From contig NZ_CP050804.1 in the NCBI RefSeq assembly GCF_012563545.1, positions 1,736,001-1,800,000 on the forward strand: a DNA stretch of 64,000 nt. Reading direction: 5' to 3'. This DNA comes from Arcanobacterium buesumense. GTDB lineage: Bacteria > Actinomycetota > Actinomycetes > Actinomycetales > Actinomycetaceae. Made by a program: the position numbers and the translations under genes. Positions within the stretch are counted from its first letter, which is position 1. The number at the start of each line of letters is the position of its first letter. Positions 15,821 through 64,000 of this stretch are shown here, in pieces. The notes below the pieces were generated by a model. That model had not been told where the DNA came from, did no database searches, and saw nothing but the letters and a program-made list of their open reading frames with translations.

Positions 15821-16924
15821 TTATGCATCCCGGCGAGATGCCTTGGTTGCAATAACACCGAAAGCACCTGTTCCTAGCGCAAGCAAGGAAATCATCCACA
15901 TAGAGAATACGCCGGTGCTAGCGAGTACTTTCTTAGGATCTTGCGGCATGTCCTGCTGGTAAGTGCCCGAGTTGTCACTATTTGAATTATTGGTAGTTTC
16001 ATTGCTACCCGAAGTACCGTTTTGTTCTTCATCCTCAGCCGATCCGGCAGTCGAGTCGCCTTCACCATCAGTAGTACCGTCACCGTCAACAGTGCCGTTA
16101 TCTTCACCATCAGTAGTACCGTCACCGTCAACAGTGCCGTTATCTTCACCATCAGTAGTACCGTCACCGTCAACAGTGCCGTTATCTTCACCATCGGTAG
16201 TACCGTCGCCATCGGTAGTTCCAGTATCTTCACCCTCAGTCGCGTCTTCAGGGATAAAAGGATTCTCAACAGCAACATACTGAGGATTCATTTCCAATGA
16301 TTTTAAGCCAATTGCGGCGCCTTCACCTACTCGCGTGGTGTAGACTAGACCGTTTTCAAATTTTGCTGAAGCATCAATTTCAAAGCTTTCAGTAGCCTTA
16401 GTTACTTTAAAAACTGCATCAGAAACCTCAGTGTACGAAGCCGGATCAATGCCGCGGAAAATGAAAGTATGTCCATCAGGTTGTTGTTCTGCTTCAATGC
16501 GTTGAACTGCACCACGCGACATTACAATTTTTGCGCGGGTATCGTCGCCATCAAGTTCAAACCCAGTGCATGGATAAACATCTGCGTGCGGCATCGAAAT
16601 TGTTTCAGTATTTGCTGGCAATGTGTAGGTGACAATGAGGTCACGCACTTCGCCTGTAGCACAGTTGTAGGCACGAACGTCGCGGTTATTTGCAGCTCCA
16701 CCACTAATAAAGAAATCAGTTGGGAGTAGGATATTTCCATTATTGATAGTTACTTCACCGGGAACATTCGGCGTTTCAGCACTCTCAAAAGGCAAAATAT
16801 GTGCGCCGGAATTATAAGGGAAAATAGTTGGCGCAGCATAGGCGACCGCACCGAAAACAGATGCCAGCACAGCACCTGCGACAGCGGCAGTTGCTACACG
16901 CATAGTTTTGGGAAAGTGATTCAT
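15821..16924 (-). CDS. cell-wall-anchored surface protein with DG-rich tandem repeats
   Basis: Secreted protein of 367 residues. Signal peptide (about 1-30, VATAAVAG...VAYAAP), then a globular region of about 190 residues with no family I recognise, then an acidic repeat built from the 14-residue unit GEDNGTVDGDGTTD, then a Ser/Asn-rich stalk and a sorting signal (LASTG, hydrophobic helix, KASRRDA). The LAxTG motif matches class E-type sortases. ATG 16924 is chosen because it gives a normal signal peptide; the frame extends upstream to 16987. The mature N-terminus NSGAHILP resembles that of the thioester protein (ESGAQILP). Confidence 0.75.
   Translation of the reverse strand: MNHFPKTMRVATAAVAGAVLASVFGAVAYAAPTIFPYNSGAHILPFESAETPNVPGEVTINNGNILLPTDFFISGGAANNRDVRAYNCATGEVRDLIVTYTLPANTETISMPHADVYPCTGFELDGDDTRAKIVMSRGAVQRIEAEQQPDGHTFIFRGIDPASYTEVSDAVFKVTKATESFEIDASAKFENGLVYTTRVGEGAAIGLKSLEMNPQYVAVENPFIPEDATEGEDTGTTDGDGTTDGEDNGTVDGDGTTDGEDNGTVDGDGTTDGEDNGTVDGDGTTDGEGDSTAGSAEDEEQNGTSGSNETTNNSNSDNSGTYQQDMPQDPKKVLASTGVFSMWMISLLALGTGAFGVIATKASRRDA
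16062..16229 (-). repeat. 42-bp coding tandem repeat, four units
   Basis: Three near-identical 42-bp units begin at 16062, 16104 and 16146, and a diverged fourth unit starts at 16188. They encode the 14-residue GEDNGTVDGDGTTD repeat of the surface-protein stalk. Such arrays expand and contract by slippage or recombination. Confidence 0.9.
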
Positions 16925-54421: not shown

Positions 54422-54464
54422 TGGAGCCGCCTGTGGGAATCGAACCCACGACCTTCTCATTACT
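54422..54464 (-). repeat. 3'-half tRNA-Thr(CGU)-type fragment: attachment-site scar
   Basis: The minus strand reads GTAATGAGAAGGTCGTGG, then the T-loop GTTCGATTC and acceptor AGGCGGCTCCA. This is exactly the 3' half of an actinobacterial tRNA-Thr from the middle of the anticodon to CCA. Upstream of the anticodon the sequence is unrelated to a tRNA. This is the signature of an att site left by integration into a tRNA gene, with the element to the right. Confidence 0.85.
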
Positions 54465-54534
54465 ATGTTTTCTTAGATATAGCGATTCTTTTTACCTATA
54501 TATATTCTCTGAGTTCAATTTTTTTGACTTTATT

Positions 54535-54579
54535 GCCAGCATATACGGCAACGCCAGCTAAGCCGGCACTGCCGTCACC
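54535..54579 (+). repeat. 9-bp GCCAGC-type repeat array 1
   Basis: An isolated GCCAGC at 54535, then 9-bp-phased units at 54544, 54553 (GCCAGCTAA), 54562 (GCCGGCACT) and 54571 (GCCGTCACC). It shares the 16-mer GCCAGCTAAGCCGGCA with array 2. It lies between the att scar and the recombinase gene. Confidence 0.8.
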
Positions 54580-54623
54580 GTGTCTTAATAGCAGGTTGTT
54601 CATTAGTTCTGATGAAGTAAATC

Positions 54624-55453
54624 ATGAACAATACAACAACACAAACAATCCTCAGTGATTGGACTTTAGCCATGCGAGCACAAGCCCTTTCACCTCTAAC
54701 CATTCATGAGCGCATTCGCGTTTCTAACTGCTTATGCGAATACGTTGACGCAACGCCAGTAACGATAACTACTGATCAGATTATCGAGTGGGTTTCACTT
54801 CTGCCGTCAGCAGTAACTAAATGGACGTACTTTACCCATATCAAGGCTTTATTTACTTGGTTAGAAATAACTAGAAGGCGTACCGATAATCCATTGCTTG
54901 GGTTAAAAGCCCCAGACGACCTAAGTACTACCCACGACCAATCTCACTCGAAGTCATTGAGCACGTTCTCAATCAGCGACTTTATCGTAAAACTCGCTGC
55001 ATGATTCTCCTGGCATTTAATTGTGGGTTACGAGTGGGAGAAATATGTAAAGTACGTGGCCAAGACTATGACCGGCAAGCCGGGCTATTAACCGTCGAGG
55101 GGAAAGGCGGAAAACGCAATACCATCCCCGTCAATTCCGGCCTTCAACCATTCTTCAACACCATGCCAGCTCACGGCTGGTGGTTTCCATGCCGCGATGG
55201 AGGGCATGTACGGTCACGATCAGTTGGAGATACTATCGTGCGCACCTTTCGACGCTACAACATTCACATGGTTTCACATCAGCTACGCCACGCATTTGCA
55301 ACAGAACTTCTTGCAGCCGATGTTGATCTACGAATCGTCCAACTGCTGATGCGTCATGAATCCATTCAAACCACTGCTCTTTATACGCGAGTGGCTAGAA
55401 CTCAGCAATTAGAAGGAACTAATAAGCTTCCCGTTTTCTTAGGAAAGGATTAA
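54624..55453 (+). pseudogene. tyrosine recombinase (integrase/Xer-like), frameshifted
   Basis: Two overlapping frames make one recombinase of about 276 residues. The N-terminal SAM-like domain (LSPLTIHERIRVSNCLCEYV) runs in one frame to NPLLGLKAP. From there the -1 frame continues with RRPKYYPRPISLEVIEHVLN and the catalytic domain: Arg in CGLRVGEI, Lys in GKGGKRN, HQLRHAFATE, His in LLMRHESI and Tyr in TTALYTRV. The shift falls at about 54903-54914 (AAAAGCCCC), consistent with loss of one base in a homopolymer; programmed -1 shifting cannot be excluded. All catalytic residues remain. The stop is two bases before parA, so it shares an operon with the partition genes. Confidence 0.85.
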
Positions 55454-55455
55454 CT

Positions 55456-56232
55456 ATGATTATTGCCGTTTGTAATCAAAAAGGCGGGGTAGGAAAAACT
55501 ACCATCTCAACCAATCTTGCACACCACCTTTCACGACAAGGATCAGTTCTGGTTATTGATGCCGATCCACAAGGCAACTCAACAACATCACTTGGAGTTG
55601 AAGTAACTCGTGAATCATTCACTCTGAATGACGTTATGGCCGCAATAGCTTCTGGCAATAGCCCAAGCGTCATCCATCAAGCGATCACACACGCACAATC
55701 AGACTGGGGTGACGTCGATGTGCTACCTGCAGATCGCTTACTCGCTTCACGTAACGACGACGGCTCTTTAGGAAGGGAAAGCAGACTACGCACCGCACTT
55801 ACAGCAGTAATTGACGACTATGAGCATATCGTTATCGATTGTCCTCCATCGCTTGGAGTTTTAACGACAAACGCCCTCGTTGCAGCCGATACAGCATTAA
55901 TTGTCACCACAGCACGAGAAACAAGCGTCGATGGCGTAGCAGAAATGGTGTCAACTATCGCAACTGTGCGTTCCTACTACAATTCACGACTAACTCTATC
56001 TGCCATATTCCTCAACGCCTTCCGGCCCGAACGAATTGATAGCGATAACTGGCGTAGACACCTACGCGATTACTACGAACCGTATCTACTCGAAAAGTTT
56101 TTACCAGAGCGTGAATATATCAACCGCGCAGCATCGTCACATTCACCTATACCAGCTGGTGTCGATGATCGTGCAGATCAAGCACTAACAGAGCTTGCCA
56201 GCATATTTACCATTGCCAGCAATGCCAGCTAA
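55456..56232 (+). CDS. ParA-family partition ATPase
   Basis: A 258-residue Walker-type ATPase. The deviant Walker A KGGVGKTTISTNLA, VIDADPQGNSTTSLG (A') and HIVIDCPPSLGVLTTNAL (Walker B) are clear. There is no N-terminal DNA-binding domain, as in short type Ib or chromosome-like ParA. It segregates plasmids or excised elements with a small DNA-binding partner. AAGGATTAACT ribosome site. The last codons (IASNAS) are built from the GCCAGC repeats of array 2. Confidence 0.95.
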   Translation: MIIAVCNQKGGVGKTTISTNLAHHLSRQGSVLVIDADPQGNSTTSLGVEVTRESFTLNDVMAAIASGNSPSVIHQAITHAQSDWGDVDVLPADRLLASRNDDGSLGRESRLRTALTAVIDDYEHIVIDCPPSLGVLTTNALVAADTALIVTTARETSVDGVAEMVSTIATVRSYYNSRLTLSAIFLNAFRPERIDSDNWRRHLRDYYEPYLLEKFLPEREYINRAASSHSPIPAGVDDRADQALTELASIFTIASNAS

Positions 56233-56241
56233 GCCGGCAAT
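56197..56241 (+). repeat. 9-bp GCCAGC-type repeat array 2
   Basis: GCCAGC at 56197, then perfect 9-bp phasing at 56215, 56224 and 56233 (GCCAGCAAT, GCCAGCTAA, GCCGGCAAT). It overlaps the end of parA and its stop codon. Confidence 0.85.
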
Positions 56242-56261
56242 GACAAATAAGGGAAAATACT

Positions 56262-56603
56262 ATGAAAACGCCTAACTTAGAAACTTTGAATTCCTTGCAA
56301 AAAGCACCTGTCAACGATCCAATAGTAGCGGGCGCACCTATGGCTGGCACCGCTGGCAATGCCAGCCACGCCAGCAAAGCCAGCAATGCTGGCACAAAAT
56401 TTACAATCAGACTCAAACAATCTGATATGGGAATAATACGTGCAGCGTATCTACACGACCTTTCTTCAGGAATTTTCCAAGGATCGCTCTCTGCTTGGGC
56501 GACACATGCACTACTTGGCAAGGCAAATGCCGTCGAGAAGCAGCAAGGAGCACCTCTTCGTGAAGTAAATACAGGAGTTATTCCACGCGGTCGATTAAAT
56601 TAG
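56262..56603 (+). CDS. small ribbon-helix-helix-like partner of ParA
   Basis: A 113-residue protein. Residues 47-90 (TKFTIRLKQSDMGIIRAAYLHDL...SLSAWATHALLG) look like a beta strand followed by two helices, the ribbon-helix-helix fold of small ParB/ParG-type centromere binders. Residues 28-45 are an Ala/Ser/Gly/Asn repeat (AGT, AGN, ASH, ASK) encoded by the 9-bp array 3. I infer it is the DNA-binding partner of ParA. It lies 29 bp downstream of parA with array 2 in the gap. Confidence 0.65.
   Translation: MKTPNLETLNSLQKAPVNDPIVAGAPMAGTAGNASHASKASNAGTKFTIRLKQSDMGIIRAAYLHDLSSGIFQGSLSAWATHALLGKANAVEKQQGAPLREVNTGVIPRGRLN
56343..56396 (+). repeat. 9-bp GCCAGC/GCTGGC repeat array 3, inside the parB-like gene
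   Basis: Six uninterrupted 9-bp units: two GCTGGC, three GCCAGC and a final GCTGGC, in both orientations, in phase with the codons. Same core as arrays 1 and 2. Confidence 0.85.
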
Positions 56604-56618
56604 AATCCTGAATCATTG

Positions 56619-56650
56619 AATAAGGCACTGTATTCTTACAGTGCCTTATT
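56619..56650. terminator. bidirectional terminator after the partition operon
   Basis: A perfect 14-bp stem AATAAGGCACTGTA / TACAGTGCCTTATT with a 4-base loop, followed by GTTTTCC. It also serves the convergent membrane gene ending at 56646. Confidence 0.92.
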
Positions 56651-56879
56651 GTTTTCCGGAATTCTCTTCTAACTCATCAGGTAAGACTATAGAACGATAG
56701 CGCACATGAATAGCCAGGAGCCATAAACACAAGCCGGCTAGAGCTAGTTCGAGCAAACACATGATATCGATGGTTGGGTGATTGAATGCGAGCCATAGAG
56801 ACGCAAAAAATCCGCCAACAGAAATAATAACAACGAATAGCCAACTTGCTAGGGAAGACATCTTTGATGTCTTCATCAT
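56646..56879 (-). CDS. small two-helix membrane protein
   Basis: A 77-residue protein with two membrane helices (SWLFVVIISVGGFFASLWLAF and MCLLELALAGLCLWLLAIHV) and a polar C-terminus. Start ATG 56879 or 56876 after AAGGGCGG; the frame extends to 56978 without support. Not recognised; an accessory gene of the element. Confidence 0.55.
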   Translation of the reverse strand: MMKTSKMSSLASWLFVVIISVGGFFASLWLAFNHPTIDIMCLLELALAGLCLWLLAIHVRYRSIVLPDELEENSGKQ

Positions 56880-57415
56880 TATCACCGCCCTTACTTCTTT
56901 TATTCTATCACTCCACTTCATTCCATTGGATTGGATGGAATGATTTCGAGTAACACGAGAAATATGTAATAAATTCATATTTATTGTGCATCGCTCTACC
57001 GTGGCGCACTGGAGCGACGCACGGTAGAACTTCTATTTTTCCTTGATTTCCCAATAAAAAGTGTATTTTTGACCGTGAGGCACCTGTTGCCGCACGGTAT
57101 TTTCACACATAATCTTAGCGACACCCAAAGTAGTTGAAGAGTAATGCGCTAGCACTACATGAAATGCTCAATTTTAGTAAGTGGCTATTTATAGGGATTT
57201 TAAGGTTTCATTTCACCGTGCGGCAGCTGTTGCCTCACGGTGAAATAGGGTGTTTACTTTTAGCGACACCTAGCAATAATCAACAAGAAATTATCATGAC
57301 ATGGAGGGTCGTCAAGGTTTTATCTGTGGATAACTTTCTTTGTGCGTCTTTTTATGTGGGAGACTTCTCGTATCATTGAACTGAAGTCTCCAATACGCCT
57401 AAAGGATGCGAAGTC
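56880..57415. other. 535-bp gene-free segment, candidate replication or resolution region
   Basis: It holds the three palindromes, the duplicated box and a perfect DnaA box (TGTGGATAA, 57325-57333) in an A+T-rich context, directly downstream of the partition cassette. No ORF that I can support. Origin, resolution site or regulatory region are all possible. Confidence 0.5.
56995..57270. repeat. three palindromes and a duplicated TTAGCGACACC box
   Basis: Palindrome 1 at 56995-57028 (arms TCTACCGTG), palindrome 2 at 57072-57098 and palindrome 3 at 57211-57245. Palindromes 2 and 3 share ACCGTG, GGCA, then TGCC and CACGGT with A/C swaps between arms. TTAGCGACACC follows palindrome 2 at 57115 and palindrome 3 at 57260, at nearly the same distance, so a module of about 145 bp is duplicated. 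Confidence 0.8.
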
Positions 57416-57805
57416 ATGGCCTTGATCTTGCTTGTCGTTTCCTTACAAATCATGTTCTTCATTTTCTTGTTGCGCTATATCGTCTTTGTCGAAGGGGTAT
57501 TGGTTGGTTTTGTTGCGGCTGTATATATGTCGCACGATTTAGGATTTCACCCAGCGTATGGAGTAACGGCAGCGATTATTATCGCGATTGCGAACCTAGT
57601 CTTGCAGTCAACCAAAGTTGGGTTTGCTTTATTGGCAACCACTTTCTCACTCATGTACGCCAATTTCGTTTATGAAAAACTTGTTGAGCACTACACTCCT
57701 GGCGACACTACATGGGGATGGTTCGGAGCGATCGTATGTTTCACAGTCAGCATGGCGCTACATGGGGCCACATTCATTAACCGACGCGAAACGCTAAACA
57801 CATAA
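57416..57805 (+). CDS. four-helix membrane protein, unknown
   Basis: A 129-residue protein with about four membrane helices covering most of its length and a short polar loop, EKLVEHYTPGDTTWG. AAAGGA ribosome site nine bases before ATG. No family recognised. Element accessory gene. Confidence 0.65.
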   Translation: MALILLVVSLQIMFFIFLLRYIVFVEGVLVGFVAAVYMSHDLGFHPAYGVTAAIIIAIANLVLQSTKVGFALLATTFSLMYANFVYEKLVEHYTPGDTTWGWFGAIVCFTVSMALHGATFINRRETLNT

Positions 57806-58174
57806 CAGCGAATTCTGTATCATTAAGAAATGCCGAATAGTCACTTTTGGGATTTTTAGCTTCCAAAATATCGAAATATTAGTGCCCCACTAAATCACAT
57901 ATCATGCCAATTCTTCGGCAGGCATACCAACTTTTCCGTCGACCCCCTTCTTCAACACAGTAAGAGCGAGACAATTTTGCAACATGTCAAAGATGCATGA
58001 AGGACACTAAACAGGTTCAATCGCACATTCATACATATGTGCGATTGAACACATATTTTGGATCAAGTATTATTATTGTGACTACATAGCCAAATCCGCT
58101 ATTTAGTTTTTGCTCCCTCAGCAGAATCATTATTACAACAGTATGTATACGACCAAAATACGCTAGGAGATTCG
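57806..58174. other. regulatory gap before the secreted-protein gene
   Basis: About 370 bp, no gene. It contains a 14-bp inverted repeat and an overlapping promoter (listed separately). The rest shows nothing I can name. Confidence 0.6.
58015..58073 (+). promoter_or_regulatory. promoter TTGAAC-17-TATTAT with operator-like inverted repeat
   Basis: -35 TTGAAC at 58045-58050, 17-base spacer, -10 TATTAT at 58068-58073. The -35 lies inside the right arm of a 14-bp inverted repeat (58015-58028 with 58037-58050). A protein bound there would block the promoter. It points at the secreted-protein gene, about 100 bp downstream. Confidence 0.6.
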
Positions 58175-58678
58175 ATGAACAAAATGAAAATTGTCTTGAC
58201 CGGATTAACAAGTGTCGCTTTCATGTTCGGCAGTGTGGGGATAGCCAATGCCCAGCCGCGTGAGACACCATCGTCTGCTGTCATCACAGTGGAAACTACA
58301 CAGGAGCTCGAGAACACAGCTGTCGCGCTAGAACGCCTTCTCAATTATTATGATTCTATTCCTGATAGCGTCCTCGCCCAAGGCGATCAAGCACTGCGAG
58401 CCTGGCAAGCCACTCATCCGGTTCCGATGATGCGCGCATCATTTTGGGGATGCCTAGGCGCAATTGGATAGCTAATTGGAAGCAATGCGGTCGGCGTGGC
58501 GAAGATCGTAAAGATCAAAAGATACATGAACGCACTAGGCGGAGTTAAGGAGGCTGTGCGTCTTATGTGGGGCGCAAGCTTTAAATACGAGAAGCTATTG
58601 GCAGCAGGCGGCGCTCTCGGAGGATTGGTATCAGAGATCGCTGGAATTACGGATGTGAAAGAGAAATGCCTATCTTGA
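58175..58678 (+). pseudogene. secreted bacteriocin-like protein, interrupted by in-frame TAG
   Basis: Strong ribosome site TAGGAG. Signal peptide (1-27, ending GIANAQPRE), then a polar helical region, then a Gly/Ala-rich part GCLGAIG ending at TAG (58469-58471). The same frame continues without other stops as LIGSNAVGVAKIVKIKRYMNALGG to DVKEKCLS at TGA 58678. Together they would make a 167-residue exported protein with two Cys bracketing an amphipathic Gly-rich core, as in some secreted antimicrobial peptides. I do not know a named family. The TAG is either a mutation (from CAG or TGG) or is read through. Confidence 0.6.
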
Positions 58679-58854
58679 TGAAGATTATCATTACAACACA
58701 ATTTATCGCAGCCTTGAGTGGAACAATACTGGCGATCTTAACGATATTTTCCGATATGGATCTCATGGATGGAGCAATAGGAGCACTAGGACTATATTTC
58801 ACTCTCGAATGTTGCAGAATGCTACTAAAACACAGAACAGAGAAACGTGATTAA
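58678..58854 (+). CDS. small two-helix membrane protein, possible immunity protein
   Basis: A 58-residue protein (MKIIITTQFIAALSGTILAI...) with two membrane helices and a basic tail, LLKHRTEKRD. Its ATG overlaps the stop of the secreted-protein frame (TGATG), so it would be translationally coupled to it. Small basic two-helix proteins are typical immunity partners of bacteriocins; that role is inference. Confidence 0.6.
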   Translation: MKIIITTQFIAALSGTILAILTIFSDMDLMDGAIGALGLYFTLECCRMLLKHRTEKRD

Positions 58855-58869
58855 CCTCGCGAAAAACCA

Positions 58870-58916
58870 AAAGTTAGGGAGAAATGTCTAAACACGTCAT
58901 TTCTCCCTAACTTTTT
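58870..58916 (+). terminator. terminator of the secreted-protein operon
   Basis: A perfect 17-bp stem (58870-58886 with 58898-58914) followed by a T tract. Confidence 0.95.
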
Positions 58917-59464
58917 ACTCGCCTCGTATACTTGACAGGATTGCTGATCATACAGATAGAGACAAAAATGTAGCTCCGGGAAAGAGCTAAAGCCCCCCTA
59001 CTCCGTGTAGCATAGATCATCAAATTCGAAAAATGATCAAGTTTGCCACTTATACTTTCACACTTTTGGCGCAAACGTCCTGCTTTGCTAAGTGAGTGCT
59101 CTATAAATAAAACCGACAAGCACATTTCCCATCTTCTGGATCATGAGTATGCCGGAAATTGCGACTTAGAATCAGAGCAACCACATGGTTGACCCTTCAT
59201 TTTGAGTGCCGGAGGCACACTAGGTTTACTAGATGTTTTTGTTCGTCCTGACTCTTCCATTGTAGCGCCGCGTCCTTTCATACAAGTCGCGTAGCGACCT
59301 AGCCTGCGTGTTCTTTGCCCTGGTCTAGCCCACACCCGCAGGCTATGGGCTAGACCACCGCAGAATACACAGTCCAGCCACGGAGGATTGTATTTCAGTC
59401 CTTGATCGGCGCTGTCATTTCAGTGTCAGGACGACACAAAACAACGCTCACAAAGGAGACGCTG
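58917..59464. other. gap with inverted repeat, no supported gene
   Basis: About 550 bp. GGTCTAGCCCA and TGGGCTAGACC form an 11-bp inverted repeat near 59319-59354. A minus-strand ORF (59141-59335) ending in a Cys-containing 39-residue stretch is possible but has a poorly placed ribosome site and was not called. Confidence 0.5.
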
Positions 59465-59959
59465 ATGACAGTTCAACAAGAAACTAACGTTGTAGAAACC
59501 GCGATTGACGCAATGGATATCTGGTTCGCTTTTCTTAACCGAGTTAAAGATGGTTTTGAGAGTGATTGCATGAGCTTTGATGAGTTCATCGAGTGCGCGC
59601 AAGGGCAGGAAAATGTTCTACGCGAAACGGTTGATAAAGTAATTGTTCGGGACTCGATAATCATCTTCGTAATCGATGAAGATTTTCGTCAGCATTGGGG
59701 ACAGTTCCCTGAAATTGATTTCATTCGGCTATCAAAGCGACCAGATTGGGCTTTGGCACGACGGGTGATTTGCTGTTTGGGTTTCATGGGTAAAAATCCT
59801 CACGCAATGGCCACATCGGCAATGCTGAATTGGTGGGTTGGTGACAACGATGAAGCAAATCGACTCGCTAATGAAGCCTTAGAAATTGATGGCTCTCTTC
59901 GATTGGCAGTGTTGATGATGAACATTCTAATGTTTGACATTGTTCCACCGTGGAAGTAA
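59465..59959 (+). CDS. DUF4192-like protein
   Basis: A 164-residue protein. The C-terminal half (ARRVICCLGFMGKNPHAMATSAMLNWWVGDNDEANRLANEALEIDGSLRLAVLM) matches the end of DUF4192 proteins, which occur in actinobacterial genomes and mobile elements. The usual N-terminal part is missing or diverged, so this is a short form. AAAGGAGAC ribosome site before ATG 59465. Confidence 0.6.
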   Translation: MTVQQETNVVETAIDAMDIWFAFLNRVKDGFESDCMSFDEFIECAQGQENVLRETVDKVIVRDSIIIFVIDEDFRQHWGQFPEIDFIRLSKRPDWALARRVICCLGFMGKNPHAMATSAMLNWWVGDNDEANRLANEALEIDGSLRLAVLMMNILMFDIVPPWK

Positions 59960-59962
59960 ATC

Positions 59963-60005
59963 AATGAGGGTGTGGGAGTACTATTAGTGCTCCCACACCC
60001 TCATT
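59963..60005 (+). terminator. terminator of the DUF4192-like gene
   Basis: A 16-bp stem AATGAGGGTGTGGGAG / CTCCCACACCCTCATT three bases after the stop codon. Confidence 0.92.
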
Positions 60006-60016
60006 TCGCGTATAAT

Positions 60017-60119
60017 AGGAATTGAGTCCTTTACGGGATTCGTGTTCTAAGCGCTGATTTTGAAGCGTTTGGATTGGAGAAAAGCGGGAGGCGCGCCGTA
60101 GGCGCGCCTCCCGTCTTTT
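60017..60119 (+). ncRNA. candidate small RNA of the element
   Basis: A consensus -10 TATAAT at 60011-60016 is followed by about 70 bases without an ORF and then a strong intrinsic terminator (GGGAGGCGCGCC, GTA, GGCGCGCCTCCC, then GTCTTTTC). A -35 is not obvious. A transcript of about 100 bases is plausible, possibly a copy-number or conjugation regulator. Confidence 0.4.
60085..60119 (+). terminator. terminator of the candidate small RNA
   Basis: A 13-bp G+C-rich stem (60085-60097 with 60101-60113), 3-base loop, then TCTTTTCATTT. Confidence 0.9.
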
Positions 60120-60166
60120 CATTTATGCATGAGGATTTTTAGGTCGGTGCCACTCCATTCCATTTA

Positions 60167-60481
60167 TTACCAGTTGTTAAAATGTTCTGGATGCGTTTCT
60201 TGGTGTTCCTCTGATTCTAAAGTTGGTTTAGGCGGGGTGGATTGACGGAAGATTTTTTGAGCGGTGCCAGATAAATCTAAAGCGCGTTCAACTTCGCGTG
60301 GTTTAACTCCAAGCGCTTCAAGTTTTTGCCGTGCTATAGCAACACGGTCATAGATTTTTTCGACGTCGTTGAGCGCTTCTTCGATAGCCAAGAGCGCTTG
60401 TGTTTTTTCTTCTATCTGAGTTAGCTCATCCGCGAAAAAATTACGTGCGGCGGAACTGACACTGGGTTTCGATGCGGCCAT
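60167..60481 (-). CDS. small coiled protein, unknown
   Basis: A 104-residue, highly charged protein. Residues about 20-65 (ELTQIEEKTQALLAIEEALNDVEKIYDRVAIARQKLEAL) look like a coiled coil, followed by GVKPREVERALDLSG. No domain recognised. Convergent with the candidate small RNA and divergent from mobC. Confidence 0.6.
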   Translation of the reverse strand: MAASKPSVSSAARNFFADELTQIEEKTQALLAIEEALNDVEKIYDRVAIARQKLEALGVKPREVERALDLSGTAQKIFRQSTPPKPTLESEEHQETHPEHFNNW

Positions 60482-60732
60482 GAGGATGTCTTTCTTTCGA
60501 TATAAAAATTATCCTCGTAGCGATTCTCCACCGCCTAGTTTAGAGGATTTTATTTTCCTTGTAAAAGGAAAAGATTCAGCGCGCAGCGCCCATTCTTTCA
60601 GTGATACAACTACACCCGAACGTATAGGACGTTAGTCGTGGTAGTACGGGTAGCAAGCAACGCAAATGTATATACACATTTGCCACTGACGTGTTAAAAT
60701 GGATGTACCATCCAAACCTTTTAGGAGGAGTC
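60482..60732. other. intergenic region upstream of mobC, candidate oriT
   Basis: About 250 bp with clustered inverted repeats: TTTTCCTT/AAAAGGAAAA (near 60552), GCAAATGT/ACATTTGC (60662-60683) and TGGATG/CATCCA (near 60701). The origin of transfer commonly lies directly upstream of mobC-relaxase operons. The nick site cannot be fixed from sequence alone. Confidence 0.45.
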
Positions 60733-61119
60733 GTGGAATCAAGTTCCACGCCTAATCGATCTCGTAAACGAGCTCGGATAGTGTACTTTTCCGAAGAAGA
60801 ATTGAATCAAATAGCGTAGCGTATGCGTTCCCAAGGGCTTACAAATTTCTCCAAGTTTGCCCGCCAAACTCTCACAAGTGGAGTCATTGTCACGAGCACT
60901 AAGAGTGCTGGAGCTGAAAGAATCAGTCGTGAAATTGCTGCTATTGGCAATAATATAAATCAGATTGCGCGCAAGGCGAATACTGAAAATGTTGCCACCT
61001 ATGAACAGGTTTTAGTAGCTATTGACCTGCTGGATGAGGTTCGCAAGTTAGTTCAATCCGAACTTGGGAGCGCGCGTGGCCGTGGTGAAAATCCATCCGA
61101 TAAGTCAAACTCTGCATAA
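60733..61119 (+). pseudogene. mobC: MobC-type mobilization protein, interrupted by in-frame TAG
   Basis: AGGAGGAGTC precedes GTG 60733, which begins VESSSTPNRSRKRARIVYFSEEEL. After 28 codons the frame meets TAG (60817-60819), then continues RMRSQGLTNFSKFARQTLTSGV and ends GNNINQIARKANTENVATYEQVL, the typical MobC accessory protein (a relaxosome ribbon-helix-helix protein). The intact protein would be 128 residues. CAG to TAG at that codon is the simplest cause. ATG 60823 after the stop lacks a ribosome site, so a truncated product is doubtful. Confidence 0.8.
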
Positions 61120-62443
61120 GGCGATTGCGTATATTACGCAAGACGCTAAGACGAACTCTGGCATTTTATGTTCGTCTAATTGTGCTGTTGTGCCATCGGA
61201 TGCTGACAATATTACGGCTGTCATGCGCTCGGCTTTAGCTGATGCTGAGGTAAAACGCGGGGTCGGCAGACCAGGTTCAGTTCTAGCTTTTCATGTGATT
61301 CAATCCTTCAAACCAGGTGAAGTTGATGCAAATACCGCCCATGAGATTGGCTGGAAATTTGCTCAAAAAATCACTGGCGGAGAACACGATCTAGTCGTTG
61401 CTACACACGTTGATCGAGGGCATATACATAATCATATTATTTTCTGCTCGGCAAATAGAGTGACGGGAAAACGGTATCGGAACCCTAATTCTAACCTGAA
61501 AAAGATTCGTAAAATCTCCGATGAGTTAGTGAAAGAGTATGGATTATCGGTCATTGAACCGGAGGGACGCGGGCAAAAGCTGTCGTCAATCTACGCAGAT
61601 GCTTATGCTCAGCACGGCAAAGAGTTTTTACGATTTGCCATTGACGATGCTGTTCAAAACTCTCATTCGTGGCAAGCAATGGTCGATACGTTAGCCGAGT
61701 CGGGAGTTACGGTATCCATGCGCGGGGCGCATATCCTGTTTGATTGTGAACAGGTTGGCCGAGCCGTTCGTGGAAAAACACTGGGTGAAAACTATACCGA
61801 ACATGCTCTTCACTCGCGTCTTGGACGCGAAGCAATGAGTGAGTTTATTGTGGCTAAAAGTCTCGTTACTCGTGTCGATGATAAGCGTTGGCAGGTACGA
61901 ATTCCAGGTAAGAAGCCCGCCCAATACTTCGTAGTTTCAGACCAACGAATAATTGATCATGGTCGTCAAATGCGACTCTATCTACCTGCTAGTGGTTCAC
62001 TGACCATTCTTAACCATCGAGGGCAGATAGCCCATCCACTTAATGTTGAAGATCTATACCAGTCATTTACACGGCCAACACCTATCATGTCTCAACATCC
62101 TCATGTGCGTGTTGAACGTGGTACGAGTGCTGCGCAAAAACGTTACTTTTCATATCTCGATTCGAAGATCGAATCGATTAAGGATGACGCAGCTACTACG
62201 TCATTACTTGCCGAGATACTACGCGATACTCAACCAGAAGATATTCCGTTAGCAATAGAAAGCAAGCTAAGCCAGGCACACCGCAGGCTGAATCTGTTTA
62301 TTGCACAACGTCAGAAACTTATTGATAAAGGACAAACTGTGGAAGGGATAGATCAGAAAATCTCGGCAATACAAGAGCAACAACGTGCACTTCTTACCTT
62401 ACGAAAGCAACTAGAAAAAAGAAACAAAGAAAGGAATAGATAA
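61076..62443 (+). CDS. relaxase/mobilization nuclease (MobA/VirD2-like, MOB_P type)
   Basis: A 455-residue DNA relaxase that nicks the transfer origin and pilots the strand. The N-terminus VVKIHPISQTLHKAIAYITQDAKT carries the active-Tyr region. VATHVDRGHIHNHIIFCSANRVTGKRY carries the HxH metal-binding motif III. The C-terminal third is coiled and charged. GTG 61076 with GGGAG five bases upstream is the best start; it overlaps mobC by 44 bases. Confidence 0.92.
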   Translation: MAVVKIHPISQTLHKAIAYITQDAKTNSGILCSSNCAVVPSDADNITAVMRSALADAEVKRGVGRPGSVLAFHVIQSFKPGEVDANTAHEIGWKFAQKITGGEHDLVVATHVDRGHIHNHIIFCSANRVTGKRYRNPNSNLKKIRKISDELVKEYGLSVIEPEGRGQKLSSIYADAYAQHGKEFLRFAIDDAVQNSHSWQAMVDTLAESGVTVSMRGAHILFDCEQVGRAVRGKTLGENYTEHALHSRLGREAMSEFIVAKSLVTRVDDKRWQVRIPGKKPAQYFVVSDQRIIDHGRQMRLYLPASGSLTILNHRGQIAHPLNVEDLYQSFTRPTPIMSQHPHVRVERGTSAAQKRYFSYLDSKIESIKDDAATTSLLAEILRDTQPEDIPLAIESKLSQAHRRLNLFIAQRQKLIDKGQTVEGIDQKISAIQEQQRALLTLRKQLEKRNKERNR

Positions 62444-62991
62444 TGGCATTACTCGAAGCTAGCGAAGCTGTGGCAACAGGCCAACAGTTTGTCTCTATGA
62501 CTGTACGAGCAGTAACAAAAGGTATTGGCTTAACGTATTCAACAGCTAGACCGCTAACGAAAGGAACTCTCCTAGCTAGCGTCAAGTCTGCACAGCTGGC
62601 TGTAAAGGGAGTCAAAGCTGGCACACATAAAATCGGTGATGGCTCAACTAAGTTCAAAGCACTTGTTGGCCAAGGCGATTTACACCCGATAGAGGTATCA
62701 AGCGAACTCGTTAAAGACTTCAAGAAAGATTTAAAAAAGCGTGGGGTCGATTTCGCGGTAGAAAAAGGTGCAGACGGAAAGACTTACATCCACTTTATCG
62801 GTAAAGATGCCGACACGATTAAGCACGCATTATCTCAGGCACGCACACGACTAGAAGGCGGTATTGAGCAGACAAAGCGGCCGCAGACACGATCCGATCT
62901 CGCCAACCATATTCAGGCTAAGGCGCAAGAAAAGAAACTCACGCCTCCTACCACAATTCCAAAGCAGACGTTGAAAGCACCTAAACGATGA
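62443..62991 (+). CDS. PcfB/DUF3801-like conjugation protein
   Basis: A 182-residue protein. The central part (LVKDFKKDLKKRGVDFAVEKGADGKTYIHFIGKDADTIKHALSQA) matches the DUF3801/PcfB pattern of proteins next to relaxases in Gram-positive conjugative elements. A low-complexity basic tail follows. ATG overlaps the relaxase stop in TAATG. Confidence 0.65.
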   Translation: MALLEASEAVATGQQFVSMTVRAVTKGIGLTYSTARPLTKGTLLASVKSAQLAVKGVKAGTHKIGDGSTKFKALVGQGDLHPIEVSSELVKDFKKDLKKRGVDFAVEKGADGKTYIHFIGKDADTIKHALSQARTRLEGGIEQTKRPQTRSDLANHIQAKAQEKKLTPPTTIPKQTLKAPKR

Positions 62992-63872
62992 ACCAGACAG
63001 TAGTAGACGTCAGGAGAGTGCTTAGCGTAATAGCTAGGTATGAAGATAGTATCAGGCGGCCACAGGAACAACGTTGGACATTGGTAACAGGTCAACCCCG
63101 ATGGCGTAGCAATAATAATCATCTTGATCCCCTTAACCCTGTTCAGGGAATCAAACCCTTGGATTTTGATAGTTACTATAAATATGCAGTACGTTGCTTT
63201 GAATACTTAAAATTCGGTAGCAACGTAGATCAGGCTATCCGTGGTACATACCCTTTTTATGAAGCTTTATACGTCTGTCAAACACCGACTATTCTAGAAC
63301 TGCTTGGCTGGCAACAGAATTCATTCTTTCATACGCAAAAACACTTACGTAAGGAAATTGCTCCAGTATCACGCAATGGCCACGCACTACCTGTTGAAAC
63401 TATTAAACAAATACCGGAATTGTTGGAACAACCTGTTGCAGTATTTGACAGCCTCACACGACATGATTCATCAGTAGTTTTATTAGATGCAAACGATCCA
63501 GCAGGGAATCCTCTCAATGTTGCTCTTCAACCAAACGGTAATGCACAGCATGGGGGGCGACAAAGTACGGGAGGTATCGTTCTAAGTGTTTACGGCCGCC
63601 AAGCGATCGACCGTTTTCTTCAACGCAACGCTGAGAATCAGACAGTCAAATATGTTGATAAAGAGAAAATAAAAAAGCTCATACCGTCAGCCGAGCTACA
63701 ATTGCGCGGAACGTATATGAGCTTTGTTAATTCGAGTGTACAGCACAGTCAAACAGATTCGCAACCCCAAACCAGGGAAGATCTAACGGCACGAATCTCT
63801 GGCCATATCTCAGATCATCCCAGTCCATCCCCAGCATCTCCATCAATATCTCCAGAAAGACCTAAACTATGA
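62988..63872 (+). CDS. MuF_C-like polyvalent protein of the conjugative element
   Basis: A 294-residue protein. Residues about 135-235 (ETIKQIPELLEQPVAVFDSLTRHDSSVVLLDANDPAGNPLNVALQ, then GIVLSVYGRQAIDRFLQRN and VKYVDKEKIKKLI) resemble the MuF C-terminal domain found in polyvalent proteins of phages and conjugative elements. The N-terminal third is unknown. It has a Ser/Pro-rich tail. It overlaps both neighbours by four bases (ATGA). Confidence 0.6.
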   Translation: MNQTVVDVRRVLSVIARYEDSIRRPQEQRWTLVTGQPRWRSNNNHLDPLNPVQGIKPLDFDSYYKYAVRCFEYLKFGSNVDQAIRGTYPFYEALYVCQTPTILELLGWQQNSFFHTQKHLRKEIAPVSRNGHALPVETIKQIPELLEQPVAVFDSLTRHDSSVVLLDANDPAGNPLNVALQPNGNAQHGGRQSTGGIVLSVYGRQAIDRFLQRNAENQTVKYVDKEKIKKLIPSAELQLRGTYMSFVNSSVQHSQTDSQPQTREDLTARISGHISDHPSPSPASPSISPERPKL

Positions 63873-64000
63873 ACAGAATAATGATCTGCGCACCTATCAG
63901 TGGAGCCATAACACAAACTCCTGACGGCGCACGCTTCAGTGTGCGAGTAGAGGATTTGCGAGTAATAGTTGAAGCCCCTGGCGAAGTCGGATCGTTCTTG
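63869..64000 (+). CDS. partial gene at window edge, conjugation operon
   Basis: Starts ATG 63869, overlapping the previous stop, and runs off the window after 44 codons (MNRIMICAPISGAITQTP...). Too short to identify; a conjugation protein is expected from position. Confidence 0.5.
   Translation, partial: MNRIMICAPISGAITQTPDGARFSVRVEDLRVIVEAPGEVGSFL

Follow-up and report, generated by a model that had tools for sequence, protein, structure and literature searches.

The ParB protein of the type Ib partition system of the Leifsonia plasmid pCXC100 reportedly binds nine 9-nt direct repeats, a result attributed to Huang et al. in 2011, and the repeats of the delta-omega system of pSM19035 are 7 bp long. 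In pCXC100 the centromere consists of direct repeats only, at one site upstream of the operon, and in delta-omega of pSM19035 an RHH protein serves as both repressor and centromere binder, with three separate arrays of short repeats, direct and inverted, that overlap the promoters of the genes it controls (PMC5016525). Among integrative and conjugative elements (ICEs), SXT/R391 carries srpMRC, an active partition system expressed from the int promoter (PMC4489591), and in the pSK41-type RepA_N origin a DNA-binding protein has its sites within its own gene, in the stretch that encodes a linker (PMC5703833).

Here we describe an operon of three genes, encoding a tyrosine recombinase (int), ParA and a small RHH protein, in a 64-kb window, the whole stretch of DNA that was analysed. 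We consider it likely that this operon, the integrase operon of an ICE, holds a type Ib-like partition module whose ParB is of the pCXC100 kind. As judged from the sequence, arrays of 9-bp repeats in and around these genes are probably the centromere of the element. The features of the locus are collected in Table 1.

Table 1. Features of the int-parA-RHH operon and of its element, in window coordinates unless marked as genome positions.
Feature	Position	Strand	Description
attL	54423..54463	.	41 bp, identical to the tRNA-Thr(CGT) 3' end at the element's other end (genome 1811414-1811454)
Left 9.6 kb of the 21,032-bp ICE	54423..64000	.	att direct repeat, T4SS, coupling protein and relaxase genes
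Array 1	54535..54579	.	9-bp GCCAGC units in the non-coding int leader; candidate operator/parS
int, tyrosine recombinase	54624..55453	+	PF00589, E 1e-24; two frames, 54624-55004 and 55001-55453
parA	55456..56232	+	258 aa; PF13614, E 7e-43; PDB ParA/Soj matches
Array 2	56197..56241	.	Over the last parA codons and stop; upstream of the RHH gene
parB-like RHH gene	56262..56603	+	113 aa; RHH domain (about residues 46-96) preceded by an N-terminal peptide and a disordered linker
Array 3	56343..56396	.	Six units, mixed orientation, inside the RHH linker codons (Ala-Gly / Ala-Ser)
Inverted repeat	56619..56650	+	Perfect, 14 bp, with T-rich DNA after it; probable operon end
MobC-like mobilisation protein of the ICE	60823..61119	+	PF05713, E 4.5e-9
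ICE relaxase	61064..62443	+	PF03432, E 2.9e-33

The operon and its element

The int-parA-RHH operon lies at the left end of an ICE inserted in tRNA-Thr(CGT), a 21,032-bp stretch that runs past the window to genome position 1811454. This element has an att direct repeat, an integrase, a relaxase, a coupling protein and T4SS genes, and its empty site was found elsewhere: in three sister genomes (G109, G096 and G135) the flanks are joined around an intact tRNA-Thr gene. A genome search and a tRNA scan showed that the tRNA-Thr(CGT) gene at the right end is intact, with the second 41-bp att copy as its 3' end, and a related element is present in two other genomes, G024 and G078. Besides the coupling protein, the further genes of the ICE encode SLT-CHAP, a VirB4-like ATPase, PrgI and DUF3801 proteins, and there is a weak TrbL/VirB6 match. 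The ICE protein encoded at 62988-63869, adjoining the relaxase, has a C-terminal MuF domain (PF18819) and is possibly polymorphic toxin-like cargo. Downstream of the RHH gene are two 31-nt inverted copies (57068-57098 and 57215-57245), 87% complementary and 116 nt apart, the second of which is also self-folding; an oriT, an origin of replication and a regulatory site are possible roles for this pair.

Since the recombinase matches PF00589 and its gene lies 160 bp from attL, it is most simply read as the integrase of the ICE. The initial annotation had suggested a role in dimer resolution, which our analysis did not support, as the position beside attL in a tRNA gene favours an ICE integrase over a dimer resolvase and the gene is frameshifted here. 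The split results from a 1-base deletion in a C run (54910-54913), which has four Cs versus five in both sister elements (L053 and L054), where int is one intact ORF of 276 aa. The deletion may be real decay or a homopolymer sequencing error; because int is frameshifted, this copy of the ICE may not excise.

ParA is a deviant Walker ATPase in which the KGGVGKTT motif starts at residue 9 with nothing ahead of it, so the protein is without an N-terminal DNA-binding domain. Two features of type Ib systems are found here, a small deviant Walker ParA and an RHH protein encoded directly downstream of parA. The gaps between the genes are 2 bp (int-parA) and 29 bp (parA-RHH), and co-transcription of all three, as had been proposed, is likely when judged by this spacing.

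Homologues of the RHH protein were found in 47 of the 213 family genomes. In an alignment of 22 members, the N-terminal peptide (K-A-x3-D-P-I) is conserved, as is a domain that begins K-x-T-x-R, and the linker between the two varies in length. When the family profile was compared with the PDB, the sole match was 3no7 (E 1.2e-10), labelled 'putative plasmid related protein'; this entry is pCXC100 ParB, which binds the centromere of that plasmid. Of the 22 members, 4 were matched by PF18064 (centromere-binding protein ParB, C-terminal). The window's protein alone matched no Pfam family and gave nothing useful from NCBIfam, 3no7 being reached by the family profile only; in tblastn searches of plasmids it had no match, and the 3no7 segment had five weak ones, pCXC100 itself not among them. 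In the AlphaFold model the two RHH helices (residues 53-69 and 76-95) are predicted with high confidence, the linker with very low confidence. Foldseek searches with this monomer model returned weak matches, to ParD RHH antitoxins and without 3no7 among them, a weakness expected of an obligate dimer with a disordered half. By its family profile, the RHH protein is assigned to the pCXC100 ParB family.

Distribution of the 9-bp arrays

The window was scanned for GCCAGC/GCTGGC units, five in a row at 9-bp spacing, in which 24 or more of the 30 positions had to match. Exactly three places were found (54535-54576, 56197-56238 and 56334-56402), and on shuffled sequence the same scan found none in 60 shuffles. 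The scan and the shuffles thus bear out the three arrays of the initial annotation as the only such places in the 64-kb window, and the arrays lie where it had put them, before the recombinase gene, across the parA stop and within the RHH ORF. They share a 9-bp repeat period and occur at three sites in both orientations, two of them over coding DNA. Across the whole 1.94-Mb genome, a three-unit pattern with one mismatch allowed was found at nine places, six of which are in the int-parA-RHH cassette; the same pattern taken backwards, as a control, was found at none. Elsewhere in the window, at 16060-16240, there is a 42-bp tandem repeat of 4.3 copies with 92% matches.

A survey of relatives covered 44 family cassette entries with 159 kb of cassette DNA, at an array threshold of 25, which the window's array 1, passing at 24, does not reach. 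The cassettes held 51 arrays versus 0 expected from shuffles, and the 485 kb of DNA surrounding them held 18. Of the 51, the RHH gene contains 19, with 12 more upstream of int, eight upstream of parA, seven in parA, two in int, two downstream of the RHH gene and one at another place. The gene trio and the arrays are thus conserved in related elements across the Actinomycetaceae, and this conservation supports the earlier suggestion of a parS- or operator-like set written into coding DNA beside parA and the RHH gene.

Arrays are also found in genes far from the cassettes. Two possibly Rep-like genes contain arrays of at least 11 GCYRGC units (L143:2692-2796 and L144:2896-3117); these arrays, of genomes G105 and G089, are about 30 kb from the par cassette and encode long AGT/AGM runs, so that centromere-like repeats occur in further genes of these elements. 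In G016, an array lies inside a 587-aa ORF (L146:1695-1772), about 30 kb from the RHH gene of that genome. A match in G121 was discarded as belonging to an unrelated PAK-repeat protein. Outside the family, upstream 9-bp arrays are present at some CB_ParB-like loci (L092 and L097), and none of 19 such loci had a significant linker array in a unit-free test of low power, one that also missed L080, the same gene as L117, whose array is clear by the GCYRGC score.

These positions bear on the possibility that the arrays are operators only, in which case the RHH protein would repress its own int-parA operon, and the level of expression, and hence excision, would be set by the arrays, with no centromere role. 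An array stands ahead of int here and in many related loci, and RHH centromere-binding proteins are known to be repressors as well (PMC5016525). However, ParA is always the neighbour, and arrays inside or downstream of genes, or in genes tens of kb away, are ill-placed as operators of this operon. We consider a purely regulatory role unlikely.

Linker DNA and the RHH strand

The arrays in RHH genes were compared with synonymous recodings of these genes. For 17 of the 44 entries no more than 1.2% of trials reached the observed array score, and for 20 of them fewer than 5% did; these p-values are too small because related loci share ancestry and are not independent. The arrays of these low-p entries are all in one frame, reading Ala-Ser or Ala-Gly. 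Within linkers, Ala before Ser is encoded by GCC in 55 cases and GCT in 5, and Ala before Gly by GCC in 14 and GCT in 68 (odds ratio 53), compared with an odds ratio of 2.9 for Ala codons in the int and parA genes of the same loci, which served as a control. Such a pattern is expected if selection acts on GCCAGC and its complement. As the codon for Ala depends on the next residue, which the peptide does not demand, the linker DNA, and not only the peptide, is under constraint.

Some linkers are near-perfect tandem repeats (L043 and L066) and there are collagen-like profile matches, which would fit a low-complexity AGX/ASX linker selected as protein and grown by slippage, its DNA having no role. 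Against this, arrays occur in non-coding DNA too, and forward and inverted units alternate within one array. That synonymous recoding destroys the arrays, and that the choice of Ala codon depends on the following residue, led us to reject the protein-only repeat as highly improbable.

The array unit was found to vary with the residue at the Arg50 position of the RHH strand. GCYRGC arrays are present in 27 of 34 entries with Arg at this position versus one of nine with another residue (p 3e-4, again too small given the shared ancestry), and L062, L069, L115 and L119 are Arg-type loci without a clear array. With Gln at this position (Actinotignum urinale, L064), the unit is TACCGG/TACCAG, found in the linker and ahead of both int and parA. 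Trp (L123 and L129) goes with ACTAGC/GCTAGT in the linker and downstream, Ser (L133) with TTGCCGGTC upstream of parA, and Thr (L130) with a CCAG-based unit. This variation of the unit with the RHH strand residue links the arrays to the RHH protein, not the integrase.

The location of array 1 between attL and int could suggest instead that the tyrosine recombinase uses the arrays as arm-type or accessory sites in excision and integration. In addition to the variation of the unit with the RHH strand, this reading has against it that arrays exist far from att and that linker arrays are also present where int lies downstream of the linker (L067, L117 and L120), and we regard it as very unlikely.

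Proposed function and comparison with known systems

From these comparisons we infer that the partition module that we favour would bind DNA, repress its operon and partition the excised element as follows. RHH ParB dimers would occupy neighbouring units of the 9-bp arrays and recognise GCCAGC on whichever strand it lies, with contact made through the two-stranded sheet, by Thr48 and Arg50 in the window's protein. The ParB-loaded arrays would constitute the centromere (parS) of the ICE, and the leader array would also repress int-parA-parB. The conserved N-terminal peptide of ParB would reach ParA and stimulate its ATPase, and the excised circular ICE would be distributed at cell division. The centromere would be written into the linker, where the unit, in whichever orientation, is read in one frame as Ala-Ser or Ala-Gly; the linker could take centromere DNA because only flexibility is needed between the N-terminal peptide and the RHH domain.

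It is a real, if tentative, possibility that the linker segment of the parB gene makes up most of the ICE centromere, with more arrays across other genes of the element. ParB would then bind its own coding sequence, and the unit and the RHH strand would evolve together. Each array expansion would alter the centromere and the length of the linker at once, in 3-residue steps, and binding would repress int, tying excision to segregation. If true, the same bases would serve as centromere and as coding sequence of the protein that recognises them. A recognition code for a little-studied ParB family could be derived from the dozens of RHH strands that occur in nature together with their DNA units, and our data suggest that the arrays are a mark of a wide range of elements in the Actinomycetaceae and keep them stable.

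The initial annotation knew of no described system of this kind. The kind itself proved to be known, as the RHH protein is assigned to the family of pCXC100 ParB, a type Ib system with 9-nt repeats, whereas a centromere laid out in coding DNA is, as far as we found, undescribed: in the literature searched, which included few subscription journals, no account was found of such arrays within the gene of an RHH ParB. With the type Ib system of the Leifsonia plasmid pCXC100, our locus shares a homologous RHH protein, a ParA without an N-terminal DNA-binding domain and a 9-nt repeat period. It differs from pCXC100 in having several arrays of mixed orientation, one in RHH coding DNA and one over the parA stop, and in that the module sits in an ICE with int in its operon. 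Delta-omega of pSM19035 likewise has an RHH protein and separate arrays in both orientations, binding and repression being predicted for the locus described here. Its repeats, however, are in non-coding DNA, and the RHH family profile gave no sequence match to the delta-omega RHH protein.

There is precedent in SXT/R391 srpMRC for a partition system in an ICE that is linked to int, although that system is of type II, with an actin-like ATPase, and its proteins are unrelated; with the locus described here, the small set of ICEs known for active partition would gain one of type I. The pSK41-type RepA_N origins are a precedent for the sites of a DNA-binding protein lying in its own linker-coding DNA, although they are replication origins rather than centromeres, and both proteins and repeats are unrelated. 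Compared with these systems, the module is of a known kind, type Ib with a ParB of the pCXC100 family, and what differs is the centromere layout, with several mixed-orientation arrays in coding DNA, above all in the linker of the binder itself.
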